Shown here: positions 1,127 to 16,040 of the stretch, piece by piece
Position numbering within the stretch: the first letter of the stretch is position 1
Layout of the letters: each line of letters begins with the position of its first letter
Source: Gryganskiella cystojenkinii
Taxonomy: Eukaryota; Mortierellomycota; Mortierellomycetes; Mortierellales; Mortierellaceae
Assembly: GCA_015852425.1 (NCBI GenBank)
Contig: JAAAIG010000848.1
Location: 1 to 16,332 of the forward strand
Reading direction: 5' to 3'
DNA: 16,332 bases
Position numbers and translations under genes: made by a program
Notes under the pieces: generated by a model
Database searches by the model: none
What the model was told of the DNA's origin: nothing
Seen by the model: only the letters and a program-made list of their open reading frames with translations

Positions 1127-1637
1127 TGAGGAGTATGGAGGTAGTGATGGTTACACACCCTCAGACTTTTTTCTGGGACAATGACTCTTACTGGACATGA
1201 CAACGATCTGTGACACCGCGCGAAAAGATAGTGCTGAAATCATGCTCGGAGAAAGTAGCAGAAAGAGTATGAAGGGAAAGTTGATGTGATATGGTAAATG
1301 AAAATTGCGAGAAACAGGGGAACAAGTAAGCAAGATGGACCCTCAAAAACATAAGAGCATGCTTCTTGTCTCTTTGGCACAATCGCTTTATTACTTTGAA
1401 GGCTTGGGGCGTTGGCTACAGTACTCGTGTCCTTGTACGGATAGAGGCTGGTTCCGTATCGGTCTAGAAATGAGCATATAAGGATTAACCAACTTGTTCT
1501 CTCAATAAAGAAACACACGGATAGAGCAATAAAAAAAACTGGCTGGTTCCATTTCAGTCCAGAATGGCGCAATGGGAAATAGTGAACCATAAATTGCCTT
1601 CCAATTTAATTCAAACATAGTCTCCATCCTCCCTACA
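1127..1637. other. Intergenic stretch, promoter side of the hydrolase
   Basis: No convincing coding sequence on either strand; the short ORFs present are unlike proteins. A TATA-like ATATAAGG lies at 1476-1483, about 155 bases before the hydrolase ATG, and may belong to its promoter. No Argonaute PIWI remnant could be recognised here. Confidence 0.4.
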
Positions 1638-2531
1638 ATGACTCGGTCTGACGTCTCTTTCCCAAGTGAAAATCTCAAGATTGCTGCCCACCTCTATGTC
1701 CCGGACACGTACCAAGCCGGCCATAAGCTCCCAGCGGTCGTGGTTGTTCACCCCTTTGGTGGTGTAAAAGAGCAGACTGCGGGTCTCTATGCCAAGCATC
1801 TCGCCAAGCAAGGTTTCGTGACCTTACCTTTTGACCGTCGCTACCAAGGCGCGAGCGAAGGCACTCCCAGACAGCAGGAGGATCCCTTTGGAGCTGCCGA
1901 GGATATCAAGTCGGCCGTGACTTTCCTCTCTCTTCAAGAGCAAGTCGATACAAAGCGCATTGGCATCCTCGGTATCTGTGCAGGAGGAGGGTACGTTCTC
2001 TTTGGTGCTTCGACGGATCACCGAATCAAGGCTGTTGCGACTATCAGTGGCGTGGATCTTGGCGCGTTTATCCGCACGATCCCTAAACCTACTTTGGACG
2101 GAATCCTCGATGACGCGGGCCATGCCAGAACCCAGTATGCAAAATCCGGACAAGTCAAGTATCTCCCCATCGTGCCTCAGCCGAACGAGATCACGGACCA
2201 AACCACGAACTTGATGGCCGAGGGATCAGACTATTATTTGACATCTCGCGGAAGTCACCCAAACTCGATTAACCGTACCACCGTGTGGAGCTACGACCGA
2301 CTAGCAGTCTACGATTCATTCGTGAGTTTGGAGCAGATCTCACCCAGACCGGTTTTGCTTATTGCAGGATCCAAGGCGGATACGTTGTTGTACAGCCAGA
2401 AAGCCTTTAAACTCGCAAAGGAGCCCAAGGAGCTTTATATCGTTGATGGATCTACCCATATCGACCTGTATGATCATCATGCGCCAAAGGCTTATCCAAA
2501 GTTGACCGAGTTCTTCAAGCAGAAGTTGTAA
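1638..2531 (+). CDS. Alpha/beta hydrolase, dienelactone-hydrolase-like (COG1073/YcjY type), Cys nucleophile
   Basis: Intact intronless ORF of 297 residues starting at the first ATG after an AT-rich leader (CTACAATGA). The alpha/beta-hydrolase plan is clear: strand plus oxyanion-loop segment AVVVVHPFGGVKEQTAGLYA (33-52), nucleophile elbow GICAGGG (112-118) with Cys114 in the nucleophile place, candidate acid Asp248 in AGSKAD, and catalytic His274 in DGSTHIDLYD. The overall pattern (TRxDVSFPS start, HPFGGVKEQTAGLYAK, LGICAGGGY, DHRIKAVATIS) is that of small cytosolic hydrolases common in bacteria and also found in fungi; Cys at the elbow is usual for that subgroup. No signal peptide or membrane segment is visible, so it is probably cytosolic. 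The substrate cannot be named; thioester, ester or lactone hydrolysis is likely from the fold. Lack of introns and a bacterial-type pattern are compatible with ancient transfer, but that is inference. Confidence 0.85.
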   Translation: MTRSDVSFPSENLKIAAHLYVPDTYQAGHKLPAVVVVHPFGGVKEQTAGLYAKHLAKQGFVTLPFDRRYQGASEGTPRQQEDPFGAAEDIKSAVTFLSLQEQVDTKRIGILGICAGGGYVLFGASTDHRIKAVATISGVDLGAFIRTIPKPTLDGILDDAGHARTQYAKSGQVKYLPIVPQPNEITDQTTNLMAEGSDYYLTSRGSHPNSINRTTVWSYDRLAVYDSFVSLEQISPRPVLLIAGSKADTLLYSQKAFKLAKEPKELYIVDGSTHIDLYDHHAPKAYPKLTEFFKQKL

Positions 2532-4724: not shown

Positions 4725-5747
4725 TTAGTGGGCAGCAACGGCAACAGGGGCGGCCTCAACGGCAGGGACTGCGGCCTCGGGCTTGTTCTCAGCCTCGGGC
4801 TCAGCAGCAGCAACAGCGGGGGTCTCCTCATCCTTGGCGGGAGCAGGGGGAGCAGCAGCCTCGACCTCAGTGGACTCGGCAACGGTAGCTGGGGTAGCAG
4901 CGGCCTCCTTCTCCTTCTTCTCCTTCTTGCTCTTGAAGAATCCAAGGGAGAGACGCTTGCTGATCTTGGAGGTCAAGGGGGAAGAGGTCTTCTCAGCCTT
5001 CTCAACAGCGACGGGTGCAGAAGGGAGGTCAGCAGCAGGCTTCTCCTCGGCAGAGGGAACAGCGGGGGCCTCAGTCTCGGCTTCAACAGCGGGCTTTTCC
5101 TCCTCAGCAGCGGCAGGAGCGGGAGTCTCCTCGACAGCGGCGGCAACCTCGGGCTCAGTAGCAGCAACCTCGGTAGCGGGAGCGGGGGTCTCCTCAACGG
5201 CAGCAGGGGTCTCCTCAACAGCGGCGGGGGCTTCCTCTGCGACAGGCTCAGGAGCAGCGGGCTTCTCAGCTGCGGGAATGGCGGGGACAGCCTTCTCGGT
5301 CTTGGGCTTCTTATCCGTGAGCTTCTTGATGTTGCTGGTCAACTTGGAGATCCAGGACTTCTTCTTATCGGCCTTGGATGTAGCAGGGGCAGCAACGGCG
5401 GGAGTCTCAGCGGCAGGAGTAGCAACTACCTCCGTCGTGGTCTCCTCAACAACAACAACGGGGACACCCTCAGCCTCAGCCTCAGCAACGACAGCCGCAA
5501 CCTCAGCTTCAGCGGGGGTCTCGGCCACGACGGGAGTGCCGTCAGCATGTTCCACGGGGTTCTCAGATGGCTCGACTGCGGTCGAGAATGTAGGCTCGGC
5601 CTCAGCAGCAGCAGGGGTTTCCTCAACGACGGCTGGGGCAGCGGGAGTCTCCTCCTTGGCGACCTCAGGGGCAGGGGTAGCCTCAACGGTCTCGGCGGCA
5701 GGAGCAACGACTTCGGGGGTAGCGACGGGAGTGGTGGTATCGGTCAT
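4725..5747 (-). CDS. Disordered Ala/Glu/Pro-rich protein with two basic modules
   Basis: Single-exon gene of 340 residues. The start is placed at the ATG for MTDTTTPVATPEVV (5747); an in-frame upstream ATG at 5816 would add 23 hydrophobic residues encoded by CT-rich leader sequence and is unlikely. The protein is almost wholly low-complexity A/E/P/V, with the hexamer-like unit (K/V/D)EETPA recurring at about residues 31, 41, 178, 184, 205 and 307. Two basic islands interrupt it: KADKKKSWISKLTSNIKKLT (about 125-144) and SPLTSKISKRLSLGFFKSKK (about 256-275, then a K/E run). KRLS fits an R-x-x-S-like or PKA-type phosphosite. No signal peptide or membrane span is seen. Biased codons (GCC, GTC, GAG, AAG) and the CT-rich leader suggest strong expression. 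The family is not recognised; membrane or cytoskeleton association of the basic modules is only a guess. Confidence 0.8.
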   Translation of the reverse strand: MTDTTTPVATPEVVAPAAETVEATPAPEVAKEETPAAPAVVEETPAAAEAEPTFSTAVEPSENPVEHADGTPVVAETPAEAEVAAVVAEAEAEGVPVVVVEETTTEVVATPAAETPAVAAPATSKADKKKSWISKLTSNIKKLTDKKPKTEKAVPAIPAAEKPAAPEPVAEEAPAAVEETPAAVEETPAPATEVAATEPEVAAAVEETPAPAAAEEEKPAVEAETEAPAVPSAEEKPAADLPSAPVAVEKAEKTSSPLTSKISKRLSLGFFKSKKEKKEKEAAATPATVAESTEVEAAAPPAPAKDEETPAVAAAEPEAENKPEAAVPAVEAAPVAVAAH

Positions 5748-5830
5748 GATTGTTGAAGACAGGAAGGAGGATGTTATGCGATGTGGAGAGAGACAGCGAG
5801 AAAAAAAAAACAACAAAGGAGGAAGTTAAA

Positions 5831-11170: not shown

Positions 11171-14100
11171 ATGATGGCATTCTGGTCCATTCTTCTCCTC
11201 CTCCTTCCACCCACACCACCGCCACCGCTCGCACAACATCGACAAAACCTTTGGCTCTCCTTCTTTCCCTTCTCCTCCTCTTCATCTTTATCGAGTTTTG
11301 TTTTCGTCGATGCCGCGGCCGTTTCACCCACCTGGCGAGCCTTTCACGGAGCCGCAATTGTGGACACCTCAATGGTAGTATTTGGTGGAACCACGGACGC
11401 GACCACAAGTCCGTATGGAAACACTGTCAAGGGATCGAACGATCTCTGGATCTGGTCAACCACGTTACGTCAATGGTCCCAACCAACTCCCTCGGGGTTG
11501 TCACCTGCCCCCCAAAAGTGTCTTAGCTCGATCTCGTTACAATCTCAGGGCAAAATGTTGTCGTTGATCAGTAATACTTCGGGCCCTTCCACAGAACTTT
11601 TGATGCTCGACACGTACTTTTGGGTCTGGTCCACACCTAATCCTCGTAAGTTTGACGCCTTTTTTTATTTTTTTTAAAAAAAGATGAAGAATGATGACGA
11701 TAAACATGAAATCAACGGACGATCTCTTGTTTTTTCAGCAAACCTCCCTCCTCCCCTTTATTGGACAGTCTCTTCGCTAAAAAAGCTATAACGGATCATA
11801 GATGTTGATATTCATTCTCTCTCCCTCTTTTCGCTTCTTTTTTTATCACAAATATAGCACTCCCTGCGGTGGCTCCGCCCTTGAGGATGGGTGCAGCAGT
11901 CGGCGTGGCAGATACTTTGGTCTTTGTGCATGGAGGGGCCGCGGTAGGCTCCAATGGGTTTGTCAGCACAGGTGTCCTCAATGACCTGACAAAGCTGGTA
12001 AGTTTCTTTAATCTGCAAAAGCTCGCTGTAGAAAACTCAAGGGGGAAACGGGATGGAAGGGTGATCATGTCGCTTTTTCAGACATTTTGAGTGTTGTTGC
12101 TTTGTTTGTTGTTTTTGTTCTTGTTCTTGTTGTGATTGTTTGTTGGTGCTATATTTACATTCCCTGCCTCCCAGCGGACTTGTTTGTCGCCCTACCTTTT
12201 TGTGTATTTTTTTTTGTTGTTGTCTTTCGCCTTTCTCGCCAAGTAGAACAACTCATGAACGCCCTTTGTGGCGTTCATGAGTGGGCTTGTTCAGCACAGC
12301 ATGAGAAAACTTTTTGCCTATGTTCGAATTCTTCGTCCACCTTTTTCAGCAAATTTTTCGCATCCCCTCACTCACATTTCTTGTGTTCCAACTCAATTTC
12401 TATTTTTGTGGGTGAAAAGGATGAAAGACGACAGAGTGGATATTGTCGCCGCGAAAAAAAAAAGAAACAAAGACATCGACTTTTGATGTGAATAGCCCGA
12501 GACATTGATACCTTCGCTGCGGTTGTTGGCGAAGCTCACCAAAATACCCAAGTGAGCTGACTGACAGGGCTGACGCCTTTTGCATAATTCTTTTTTATCA
12601 TATGCAATCGTGTGTTTTTGCACTGATGTATAGGATGAAAGTACTTTCAGCTGGACCTCAATCGCCAACGGACCCTCGCTCATGTACCATACCATGTGCA
12701 GGCTCTCCGGTTTAAACATGATGGCCATCTTTGGTGGCAGTGACCAAAACAGTCCTGCGTACAACACCGTCCACACGTTCGATTTGACGCTCGAGGTCTG
12801 GAAACTCGCGATCCCTGTCAACCCGGGTATTGGTGGCTCTATTCCCTCGGCCCGAAAGGGTCATTCAGCCGTTTGTCTGAACAATACGATGATTGTCTAC
12901 GGTAAGAGAGAGAGAGAGAGAACAAAAAAGAAAAACCACACACTTAATCCATGCCCTGAAAAAAAAAGATGTCCTTATGATCACCTAGATGTTCGTAGCT
13001 GGCTCTTGCACCCAGCCTTTTTACGTCTTCGCTCGTTTTGTTACACAAAAACATGCGCATGAGCAAACGTGGAACCTCCTTTTCTTTTTTCTTGAGGTCA
13101 GGCTTCACTCTTTTGCTAGCAACCCTTCTCATGCATCATCTCTGTCCACACGAAAACAAATAGGGGGTGGGCCAGATGGACCCATTGATGATGATGTTTG
13201 GGTCTTGGATGCTTCTGCGCCTCAATGGGTCTGGAACCGAATCACCACCAACAAGCAGCTTGGACCAGGACCTCGGACGGGTCATTCTGCACTCTTGAAC
13301 GGGACCAACATGCTCGTCTGGGGTGGGTACGGAGCACCGCAGGCTAACGATACCAACATCTATATTCTTGACACGGCTCAGTGGCAATGGACGTCTTCAA
13401 AGGAAATCGGCGGTGGAAGTGTTGCTCCTTTACCAACAGTCCCGGGAGGAACGGACGACAAAAAGAACAACTTGCCGTTGACGATTGGCGTGGTCTGTGC
13501 AAGTTTAGCCCTCATTGCCGCGTTTATCGGGTTCTTGCTCTTCCGTCGCCGGTCCTCAAGGAGAAGAAACGCAGGCATTTCCAAAGGCTTGAACGAGACC
13601 ACGAGTCGCCTGAACGACGGCGAACAACCTTTGTCGCATGACATGGCCATCGAGGATAAACCCAGCTACTATAGCGCGGACAGGGACTCTAGATCGTCTC
13701 TCGGGAAAAAGTCACAAACAGCCAACAGAAGATCTATGTCACCATCGCCGGTTTCATCCCAGGGTTACCCAATGCAGTCAATTGCGGCCCTGACTCAACC
13801 GAGTTTAGAACATGACTCATCTACGAATCAGGCGGATTCCAGTCGGTCGTCGGGACGTTATGGTGGCGAAAAGACTTTCGGATCGTCATCAGTAAGGGAG
13901 ACCGATCCCACGGCCTCGGGGACCGTGGCTGCGCGTGTCGGTTCTATTTCCTCGGACCCTTACTACCCAGCCTACATGGCCGAGGACGACGAGGAGGACG
14001 CAGACCGATGGACGTTCGCTTCATCTTTGTCGTTTGATCAGAGAGATAATAGCCATAGTATGCCGACATTACGGTATATCCCTACACGTGTTCATGCTGG

Positions 14101-16040
14101 CTCTGGAGGCGGCTCAGGGACACCTCAACGATCTTTGGGGCAATCGACCGGAAGTCTTGGAGGCGCGAGTTCCCAAAGGATGCCGATAGTGATTCATCCA
14201 CCTTCAAGAGGTGCACGACGTGATCATAGTGGAATATCAATCCTTTCCGGAAACGGATCCTCGATCGGACCAGGATCAATTTCACTTGCTGGAGCCAACT
14301 CGTCCGAAATTTTGAACAGGGATAGTCCATCGAGTCCTCGGGACACGACGCTTTTCAACTCTGTTAGTCCTTTGGATCGAGTCACATTAATGTGTACGGG
14401 TATGGATGTTGGTCGAGCGAGCGAGGAGGACGGGATGGCACTGAACCAGCGGACCAGTGGGTCCATTCAACTCAGTCGGCCCAAGGAGGCTGGTACTGCG
14501 GCTGAGGCGGTCGCCGCCGCCGCCACCGGTGGAAATGCCGTGGACAAGGACGGCGAACATCAGGAGCTTTCCAATTTACGGCGCAAGGACACCACGTCGA
14601 CCTCGACCACAAAATCCTCTACGACCTATACCAACCTCGATCACCCTGCCTTGATCACGCTTGTGCAGAACCTTCCGGCTCGTTACAAACTCGCGAAATC
14701 TCCCTGTCCGATCCATGGGGAGGCGAATGATATCTTGTTTGCGATCGATTCGGATACCCAACAACCGATCGTGATCAAGTCCTTCTCTCGCAAGGAAGGA
14801 TGGGAGCGCGAATGTCGAATCCTCAGAAGACTTCGGGGTCCTTGTGTTGTCGAGCTCAAGCATGTGGCGACATTGGTCCTTTCGGAAACGGATGATCCCA
14901 ACAAACCGGCCAAGATCCGACTGACGATTCTGGAGCGATTGGACGAGACTCTTGCACAAATGCTGAAGAATGCGCGGAAGGCTAAAAAGGTTGCACTCCG
15001 AGAGCAGACTCTTCATACAGATCCACCTCTGGACCTCGCTGGCGCAGGACTTTATCATTCAGGCCCTGCATTGGATGAAGGTTACATCAAAGACATTATC
15101 AAGGGTGTTCTCCGGTGTTTGACCTGGTGTCATTCCAAAAAGATTGTCTATTGTGATCTCAAGCCGTCTAATGTGATGCATAATCGGGATGATCCCCGTC
15201 AACAGTGGAAGTTGATCGATCTCGAGTCCTCGCGCATTGCGAATGAAGAATGTATCGGGATCGGAACCGTTCGATATTGTCCACCAGAGGTCGCAAGAGG
15301 TACTACAGTCAACAAAGAGGCTTCCTTGGGTGTCACAGCGAATTTCAGTATTGATCTCTGGGCTTTTGGATGTCTGGTCTATGTAAGTTCAGTTGTCATG
15401 CTCTTGCAAAAAACAACCCCGAGACTTGAAAACGTGTTTTTAACAATTTTATGTGGTGAATAACTTAGGAACTGTTTGCAACGAGACCCTTGTTCCCACT
15501 TTCGCTTTCGGATGATACTGTCTTGCACTTTTTGGCTCACCCCTCTGCGGATACACCCTCGCTTGCGAATGGACTGAAATGGGCCTCTTCTCGAGAACTC
15601 GAGATTCCTTACTTTGAGGCTGCCGTCCCCGATGAGAACGCTAGGCGATTGATCCGTATCCTTCTCAATCCTGATCCTCAACGTCGTGCCACCATGGATC
15701 AAGTTTTGGTAACCATTTTTTGCTTGCTTTGTCGCCTACCTCGATACTCACGTCCTATTCGCGAAAGTTTTCGATTGATCGAACTTCAGGTTAGTTTTTC
15801 TGACAACAATATTTTCACCCGCATCATTCTTCTCTCTGTCTCTCTCTCATTTTCTATGAATAGAACTCGGATTACTTGCGTTCCAGCAACAGCAGCACTA
15901 TCGACATGAACAGTCTTCGCGAAACAACAGGATCGACAACTCATGTTAATGAATTGAGCGCGCCTTCAACACCAAAGACACACGCCTCTGCGGCAACTTC
16001 TCAACCGACAATGACATCGAATCCCCCACAGCAGGAATAA
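11171..16040 (+). CDS. Receptor-like protein: kelch ectodomain, one TM helix, atypical protein kinase domain
   Basis: Exons 11171-11645, 11858-11997, 12634-12901, 13164-15382, 15469-15708 and 15864-16040 join in frame to 1172 residues; all introns are GT..AG. The ATG at 11171 was chosen because a signal-like hydrophobic start (MMAFWSILLLLL) follows; in-frame ATGs at 10766 and 10793 would bury it. Residues 55-392: six kelch blades (VVFGG, degenerate LSLIS, VFVHGG, AIFGG, IVYGGG, LVWGG), each followed by a W-containing strand. Residues 398-421: TM helix LPLTIGVVCASLALIAAFIG and on, then RRRSSRRR, giving a cytosolic C-terminus. Residues about 430-800: Ser/Gly/Pro-rich linker. Kinase, about 810-1121: VIK Lys833, alpha-C ERE (842-844), catalytic Asp959 in YCDLKPSN, metal Asp980 in DLE instead of DFG, GTVRYCPPE (PPE 1001-1003), DLWAFGCLVYELF and RRATMDQVL. 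The glycine loop is poor (PIHGEANDILF). The likely role is signalling at the cell surface; the ligand is unknown. Architecture is seen directly; function is inferred. Confidence 0.85.
11668..11682. repeat. T8A7 self-complementary tract in intron 1
   Basis: Eight T followed by seven A just after the intron 1 donor of the kelch-kinase gene. Confidence 0.8.
12251..12282. repeat. Perfect 13-bp hairpin inside intron 2
   Basis: ACTCATGAACGCC (12251-12263) and GGCGTTCATGAGT (12270-12282) are exact reverse complements around the loop CTTTGT. The hairpin is in the 636-base intron 2 (11998-12633) of the kelch-kinase gene, the longest intron here. Confidence 0.9.
12905..12920. repeat. AG dinucleotide repeat abutting a splice donor
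   Basis: Eight AG units begin inside the GTAAGAG donor of intron 3 (12902-13163), so repeat-length change would alter the bases just after the splice site. Confidence 0.75.

Follow-up and report, generated by a model that had tools for sequence, protein, structure and literature searches.

Positions 11171..16040 (+) of a 16,332-nucleotide stretch of DNA from the soil mould Gryganskiella cystojenkinii (contig JAAAIG010000848.1 of assembly GCA_015852425.1; the whole stretch is called the window here) hold a six-exon gene for a protein of 1172 amino acids plus stop, which is probably a type I single-pass receptor-like Ser/Thr kinase. The best reading of this protein and its relatives is that kelch-helix-kinase proteins form an unrecognised family of receptor-like Ser/Thr kinases. 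An earlier sequence-only reading of the same DNA had proposed such a receptor in an early-diverging fungus, and the species indeed belongs to the Mortierellaceae (phylum Mortierellomycota). It had also noted that single-pass receptor kinases are generally said to be missing from well-studied Dikarya. Two papers state plainly that receptor kinases are lacking in fungi (PMC5854419, PMC6733946); the second is a survey of 72 genomes, which included a Mucoromycota set, and names hybrid histidine kinases as the closest equivalent. With at least 130 protein clusters of receptor-kinase architecture, the family would change this picture, and early-diverging fungi would gain a candidate one-protein route from the surface to a kinase.

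The gene model contains no internal stop, and every intron is of the GT-AG type. Protein alignments with relatives run unbroken across junctions 1-4, while junction 5 falls in the diverging C-terminal tail. The gene and the parts of its product are as follows.

11171-11645, 11858-11997, 12634-12901, 13164-15382, 15469-15708 and 15864-16040, forward strand: exons of the kelch-kinase gene (GT-AG introns, open frame, junctions compared with relatives)
11171..11332, forward strand: N-terminal stretch with a hydrophobic run, a possible signal peptide (start codon uncertain)
11333..13405, forward strand: kelch β-propeller, residues 55-375, split across exons 1-4
13478..13543, forward strand: single transmembrane helix, residues 400-421 (Kyte-Doolittle 2.67, the sole region at or above 1.9 in the protein; a helix in the AlphaFold2 model)
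13544..13567, forward strand: basic stop-transfer cluster RRRSSRRR, residues 422-429 (K+R enriched after the helix across the family)
13568..14665, forward strand: disordered Ser/Thr-rich linker, residues 430-795 (pLDDT mostly below 45)
14009..14032, forward strand: linker motif WTFASSLS (59/59 members of the Mortierellomycota clade, 2/69 others)
14366..14377, forward strand: linker motif SPLD (linkers of 103/128 members versus 111/6400 shuffled linkers)
14666..15878, forward strand: protein kinase domain, residues 796-1119, exons 4-6 (Pkinase 2.1e-27; Foldseek)

As the sequence-only reading had noted, exon 13164-15382 by itself holds the last kelch repeats, the hydrophobic helix, RRRSSRRR, the linker and most of the kinase. 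It is thus very improbable that two adjacent genes or a gene-prediction artefact have been joined here, and independently predicted relatives of many species carry the same domains. The order kelch-helix-kinase recurs in relatives from two fungal phyla, which makes a chance or mis-spliced fusion unlikely and bears out the claim that the fusion is genuine. Splicing artefact and neighbouring genes were rejected on these two grounds, the single exon and the relatives.

Both domains were recovered by the Pfam search that the sequence-only reading had proposed (Kelch_KLHDC2, 1.3e-49; Pkinase, 2.1e-27 over residues 821-1119). Pfam, AlphaFold2 and fold comparison all indicate kelch repeats that form a propeller, which by computed comparison resembles six-bladed ones. 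In the AlphaFold2 model propeller and kinase are both confident and are linked by the helix and the disordered linker; Ser and Thr make up 25.9% of residues 422-795 versus 19.8% of the whole protein. The 24 Protein Data Bank (PDB) matches of the kelch part include FBXO42. A VIA-align comparison listed matches to the kelch part only and is uninformative on the kinase.

There is one membrane helix, with its positive flank on the kinase side. Across 129 sequences, K+R average 6.6 in the 15 positions that follow the helix versus 1.0 before it; this set, shared with the signal-peptide counts, includes P0118 and P0141, and P0131 is mis-scored in it, an N-terminal run having been taken as the helix. 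By a crude home-made rule, a signal-peptide-like start was found in 36/43 members versus 14/860 control windows. This rule needs at least 21 residues before the first kelch strand, and 16 of the 59 members with that strand were shorter and left out. The kelch side is thus most likely extracytosolic on sequence grounds, a placement compatible with either the outside of the cell or the lumen of the endoplasmic reticulum (ER).

This latitude admits the main rival, an Ire1-like sensor of the secretory pathway whose kelch part faces the ER/Golgi lumen and whose kinase reports on protein or wall-polymer traffic. Ire1 is a single-pass kinase of identical topology with a β-rich lumenal domain, it occurs in fungi, and the sequence data fit either membrane. 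We nevertheless regard this rival as unlikely. The window protein has kelch repeats in place of PQQ-like ones and no RNase domain: PQQ-like lumenal domains are not among its Pfam hits, no hit to an RNase/KEN domain after the kinase appears at E ≤ 1, and the protein ends 53 residues past the kinase match. A C-terminal KKxx, KxKxx or HDEL/KDEL was found in 0/128 members, some of these models being cut short; this argument is a weak one, since ER retention of a single-pass kinase does not necessarily require such an end.

The N-terminus depends on a start codon at 11171 that is uncertain, the frame staying open for 645 bases upstream. A public protein, P0001 ('Cyclin-dependent kinase 13 [Gryganskiella cystojenkinii]'), is identical to the window protein over the kinase region. 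This NCBI model begins 67 residues later, at residue 68, and is probably too short, judged from sequence, because its start lies past a conserved element of relatives, the first kelch strand (WRAFH).

Conservation of the kinase was scored in 128 sequences, the window gene and 127 relatives; P0001 (the window gene itself), P0118 (kinase absent) and P0141 (kinase incomplete) stand outside this set. The window kinase has a Ser/Thr-type loop (DLKPxN) and the catalytic residues, of which the following positions are central.

14777..14779, forward strand: ATP-binding Lys833 (128/128)
15152..15172, forward strand: catalytic loop CDLKPSN, HRD Asp kept and Arg replaced by Cys, non-RD (Asp 127/128, Cys 128/128, Asn 128/128)
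15218..15226, forward strand: D-L-E replacing DFG, Asp kept (Asp and Glu 128/128)

The ATP-binding Lys, two αC Glu, the catalytic-loop Asn, the DFG Asp, the APE Glu and the αF Asp are each kept in 128/128. Cys precedes the HRD Asp throughout, which makes the kinase of the non-RD type, and the DFG position reads D-L/M/F-E in 128/128. Non-RD kinases are not known to require activation-loop phosphorylation. With Cys in place of the Arg of HRD, the sequence suggests that activation of the window kinase is probably likewise independent of it.

Several points weigh against the protein being an active receptor kinase. The sequence-only reading had called for membrane-helix and signal-peptide predictions, and only part of the outcome is favourable: the single helix stands, and most testable relatives have a signal-peptide-like start, but the window gene is among the seven members that fail our rule, its hydrophobic run being followed by prolines. 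P0067, P0072 and P0135, of which two are named Umbelopsis, belong to the 16 members with the shorter N-terminus; they start MAQQSLP and lack a hydrophobic start. The kinase has a reduced glycine-rich loop and lacks the Gly of DFG, the HRD Asp is Gly in P0044, and the catalytic-loop Lys is Gln in P0059. Our view of the family is also bounded by database searches limited to proteins of 0.55-1.75 times the query length.

The reduced glycine-rich loop, the D-x-E motif and the loss of the catalytic Asp in P0044, together with a relative in the same genome that has HLN for HRD, would suit a wall-binding adhesin or sensor whose cytosolic pseudokinase serves as a docking scaffold. We regard this possibility as unlikely, slightly more so than the secretory-pathway sensor. 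Each of Lys, Glu, Asp, Asn and Asp is present in 127 or 128 of the 128 sequences across two phyla, and in every one of the three groups compared below conservation is highest in the kinase, unexpected for a dead scaffold. Haspin is active although its DFG Gly is absent.

The class of the kinase was judged from several comparisons. In a Foldseek search the kinase part matched CDK12, CDK2 and ERK2 (best E 4.3e-17); in a separate PDB comparison with one sequence, CDK12 was the best match of the kinase part. By sequence as well as by fold the best matches are CDK/MAPK kinases, a resemblance rather than a group assignment. As regards plant RLK/Pelle and other TKL kinases, the profile PK_Tyr_Ser-Thr scores 14.8 bits, under its 23.1-bit cut-off. 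Tyr-type catalytic loops read DLAARN or DLRAAN. The loop of receptor tyrosine kinases was not found here: the window protein has CDLKPSN, and the catalytic-loop Lys is present in 127/128. CDKs bind cyclin through an αC motif, PSTAIRE. Unlike CDK12/13, the window protein spans the membrane and its αC reads WEREC, as in all 104 rows compared. No F-box was hit in the window protein by Pfam at E ≤ 1. Public names among P0001-P0104 are misleading and include F-box only protein 42, cyclin-dependent kinase 12/13, negative regulator of mitotic exit and receptor protein-tyrosine kinase. For members of the family F-box only protein 42 and CDK12/13 look wrong, and the labels CDK13, FBXO42 and tyrosine kinase were rejected on the missing features.

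Relatives were collected with kinase and kelch queries. A kinase-only search with residues 785-1125 of the window protein gave 117 matches at E ≤ 1e-3; 104 of them reached E ≤ 2.0e-46, and the other 13 were no stronger than 2.4e-9; the two of these 13 with organism names came from a Puia bacterium and an oomycete. With a Rhizopus microsporus kinase as query, 174 matches were obtained at E ≤ 1 and the best 120 listed. Among these listed matches, scores extend to 4.2e-18; the next one, at 2.1e-7, opens a set of three kinases that look unrelated. The eight weakest above the drop (P0154-P0161) cover only ∼40% of the query. The family comprises at least 130 relatives, counted as protein clusters, before a sharp drop in score. 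A kelch-only search with a Mucor member, in which scoring was confined to the 7983 candidates with the largest word overlap, yielded 64 matches, 57 of them with a kinase Pfam domain; the family members it recovered were all of Mucoromycotina type. Among the seven others, the kelch part and the helix place P0118 and P0141 in the family, and the remaining five, at 6.6e-13 or weaker, are kelch proteins of other kinds. P0118, from Blakeslea trispora, is a kelch-helix-linker protein of 693 residues without kinase, either a shortened model or a genuine loss.

Compared directly, the window and Mucor kelch parts are 36% identical over about 320 residues. Among the 164 proteins in hand, the window kelch part matches 59/59 from the Mortierellomycota clade, 58/84 other family proteins (several of these models lack the kelch part, and P0149-P0161 were used in this comparison only) and 0/21 non-family proteins. 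The search for architectures with both domains, which the sequence-only reading had suggested, was thus productive in Mortierellomycota and Mucoromycotina alike. All organism names above the score gaps belong to Mortierellomycota or Mucoromycotina (Mucorales, Umbelopsidales, Endogonales); four lineages were looked up, and the remaining genera of named members we take to belong to these groups. Names from Dikarya, Glomeromycotina, Zoopagomycota or chytrids did not occur among the listed matches, which passed word and length filters and are not proof of absence.

Median identities to the window protein were calculated from the 18 to 38 rows that covered > 60% of the part concerned. For kinase, kelch and linker they were 84, 71 and 56% in the closest Mortierellomycota (P0002-P0032), 74, 65 and 46% in P0033-P0052, and 48, 36 and 20% in P0060-P0097 (Mucoromycotina and those grouping with them); the order kinase > kelch > linker held in all three groups. 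In a kinase tree of the 120 of 128 members with enough kinase sequence, the Mortierellomycota fall into a single clade (59 tips, support 0.898). Within the tree, the members of paralogue group B cluster together as a clade (23 tips, 0.999); those of group A do so only if the three Actinomortierella sequences are excluded (33 tips, 0.879). Going by record names, 13 species or strains have both A and B copies. P0044 (Gamsiella multidivaricata) and P0059 (Dissophora globulifera) are group B members that are possibly decaying to pseudokinases.

No description of the kelch-kinase family was found in the literature with combined terms, locus tags of two members and phrases, most subscription papers lying outside the scope of this search. 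Mucoromycotina signalling genes are described as expanded and poorly characterised in the excerpts available (PMC7482071); the Rhizopus kinome has been analysed, and the words kelch and receptor are absent from the main text as available (PMC2699053). The passages obtained from two further papers (PMC4961843, PMC6989107) contain nothing on the family. The sequences were already in databases under misleading names; within the literature searched, their recognition as fungal receptor-like kinases appears to be new.

If the window protein and its relatives are receptor-like kinases, the propeller would lie outside the plasma membrane and bind a ligand, such as a wall polymer, a secreted peptide or the surface protein of a partner. 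Ligand binding would then cluster the receptors, perhaps via the small residues of the helix. A small-xxx-small motif occurs in 128/128 helices, a count made with no control set; such motifs are common in helices. The kinase would phosphorylate the Ser/Thr-rich linker and partners docked at WTFASSLS and SPLD, which would relay the signal. A surface location and a sensing role are what we infer for the family. It is quite possible, though we would not yet call it probable, that it is the first plasma-membrane receptor Ser/Thr kinase family recognised in fungi, one that combines a kelch ectodomain with a kinase of invariant non-RD type and is old enough for Mortierellomycota and Mucoromycotina to have it in common.

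Plant RLK/Pelle and animal receptor kinases are alike in having an N-terminal ectodomain, one membrane helix and a cytosolic kinase, and plant receptor-like kinases (RLKs) share the Ser/Thr-type catalytic loop. The window protein differs from both by its kelch ectodomain, its long disordered linker and a kinase best matching CDK/MAPK structures; its named relatives are, within the searches made, fungal only. FLS2, EFR and XA21, the non-RD immune receptors of plants, have Cys-Asp in the catalytic loop, as does the window kinase. By analogy with these receptors, the kelch-kinase could have a surveillance role as a receptor that detects wall damage, self/non-self or microbes. Fungal hybrid histidine kinases differ in their histidine kinase chemistry and in their other domains. 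In an oomycete, according to the excerpts available, receptor-like TKL kinases with a signal peptide, a membrane helix and a cytosolic kinase occur; they resemble the kelch-kinases in this order, in being lineage-specific and in belonging to hypha-forming organisms, and differ in their ectodomains (leucine-rich repeats or unassigned), their TKL group and their occurrence outside the fungi (PMC3019232).

The assembly (34,989,676 bases in 1050 contigs, the window being contig C913) was searched with exon 4. Besides the window gene, the search returned a kinase relative with a weaker match (C252) and kelch sequences on two contigs (C475, C220). The C252 locus (L007:2382-6425, +) is a 1348-residue open frame whose kinase-like domain reads HLN at the HRD position and DFE at that of DFG; this pseudokinase-like relative is 37% identical over residues 643-739 of the exon-4 query. 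On C475, L008:1544-3238 (-) encodes a protein that shares with the window protein the kelch repeats, one hydrophobic helix and a basic flank (RRRK), and differs by a short tail without kinase; kelch-membrane proteins therefore also exist kinase-free. On C450 and C190 (L005/L006), kelch exons are followed on one strand, the minus strand, by kinase exons that look AGC-type by eye; these would be either tandem genes or a second kelch-kinase type.

Two further frames lie elsewhere in the window. Positions 4725-5825 (-) hold a 366-residue Ala/Glu/Pro-rich frame for which Pfam gave no match at E ≤ 0.01; here the other strand is open as well. The open frame at positions 1593-2531 (+) belongs to the dienelactone hydrolase family (Pfam 1.5e-12).

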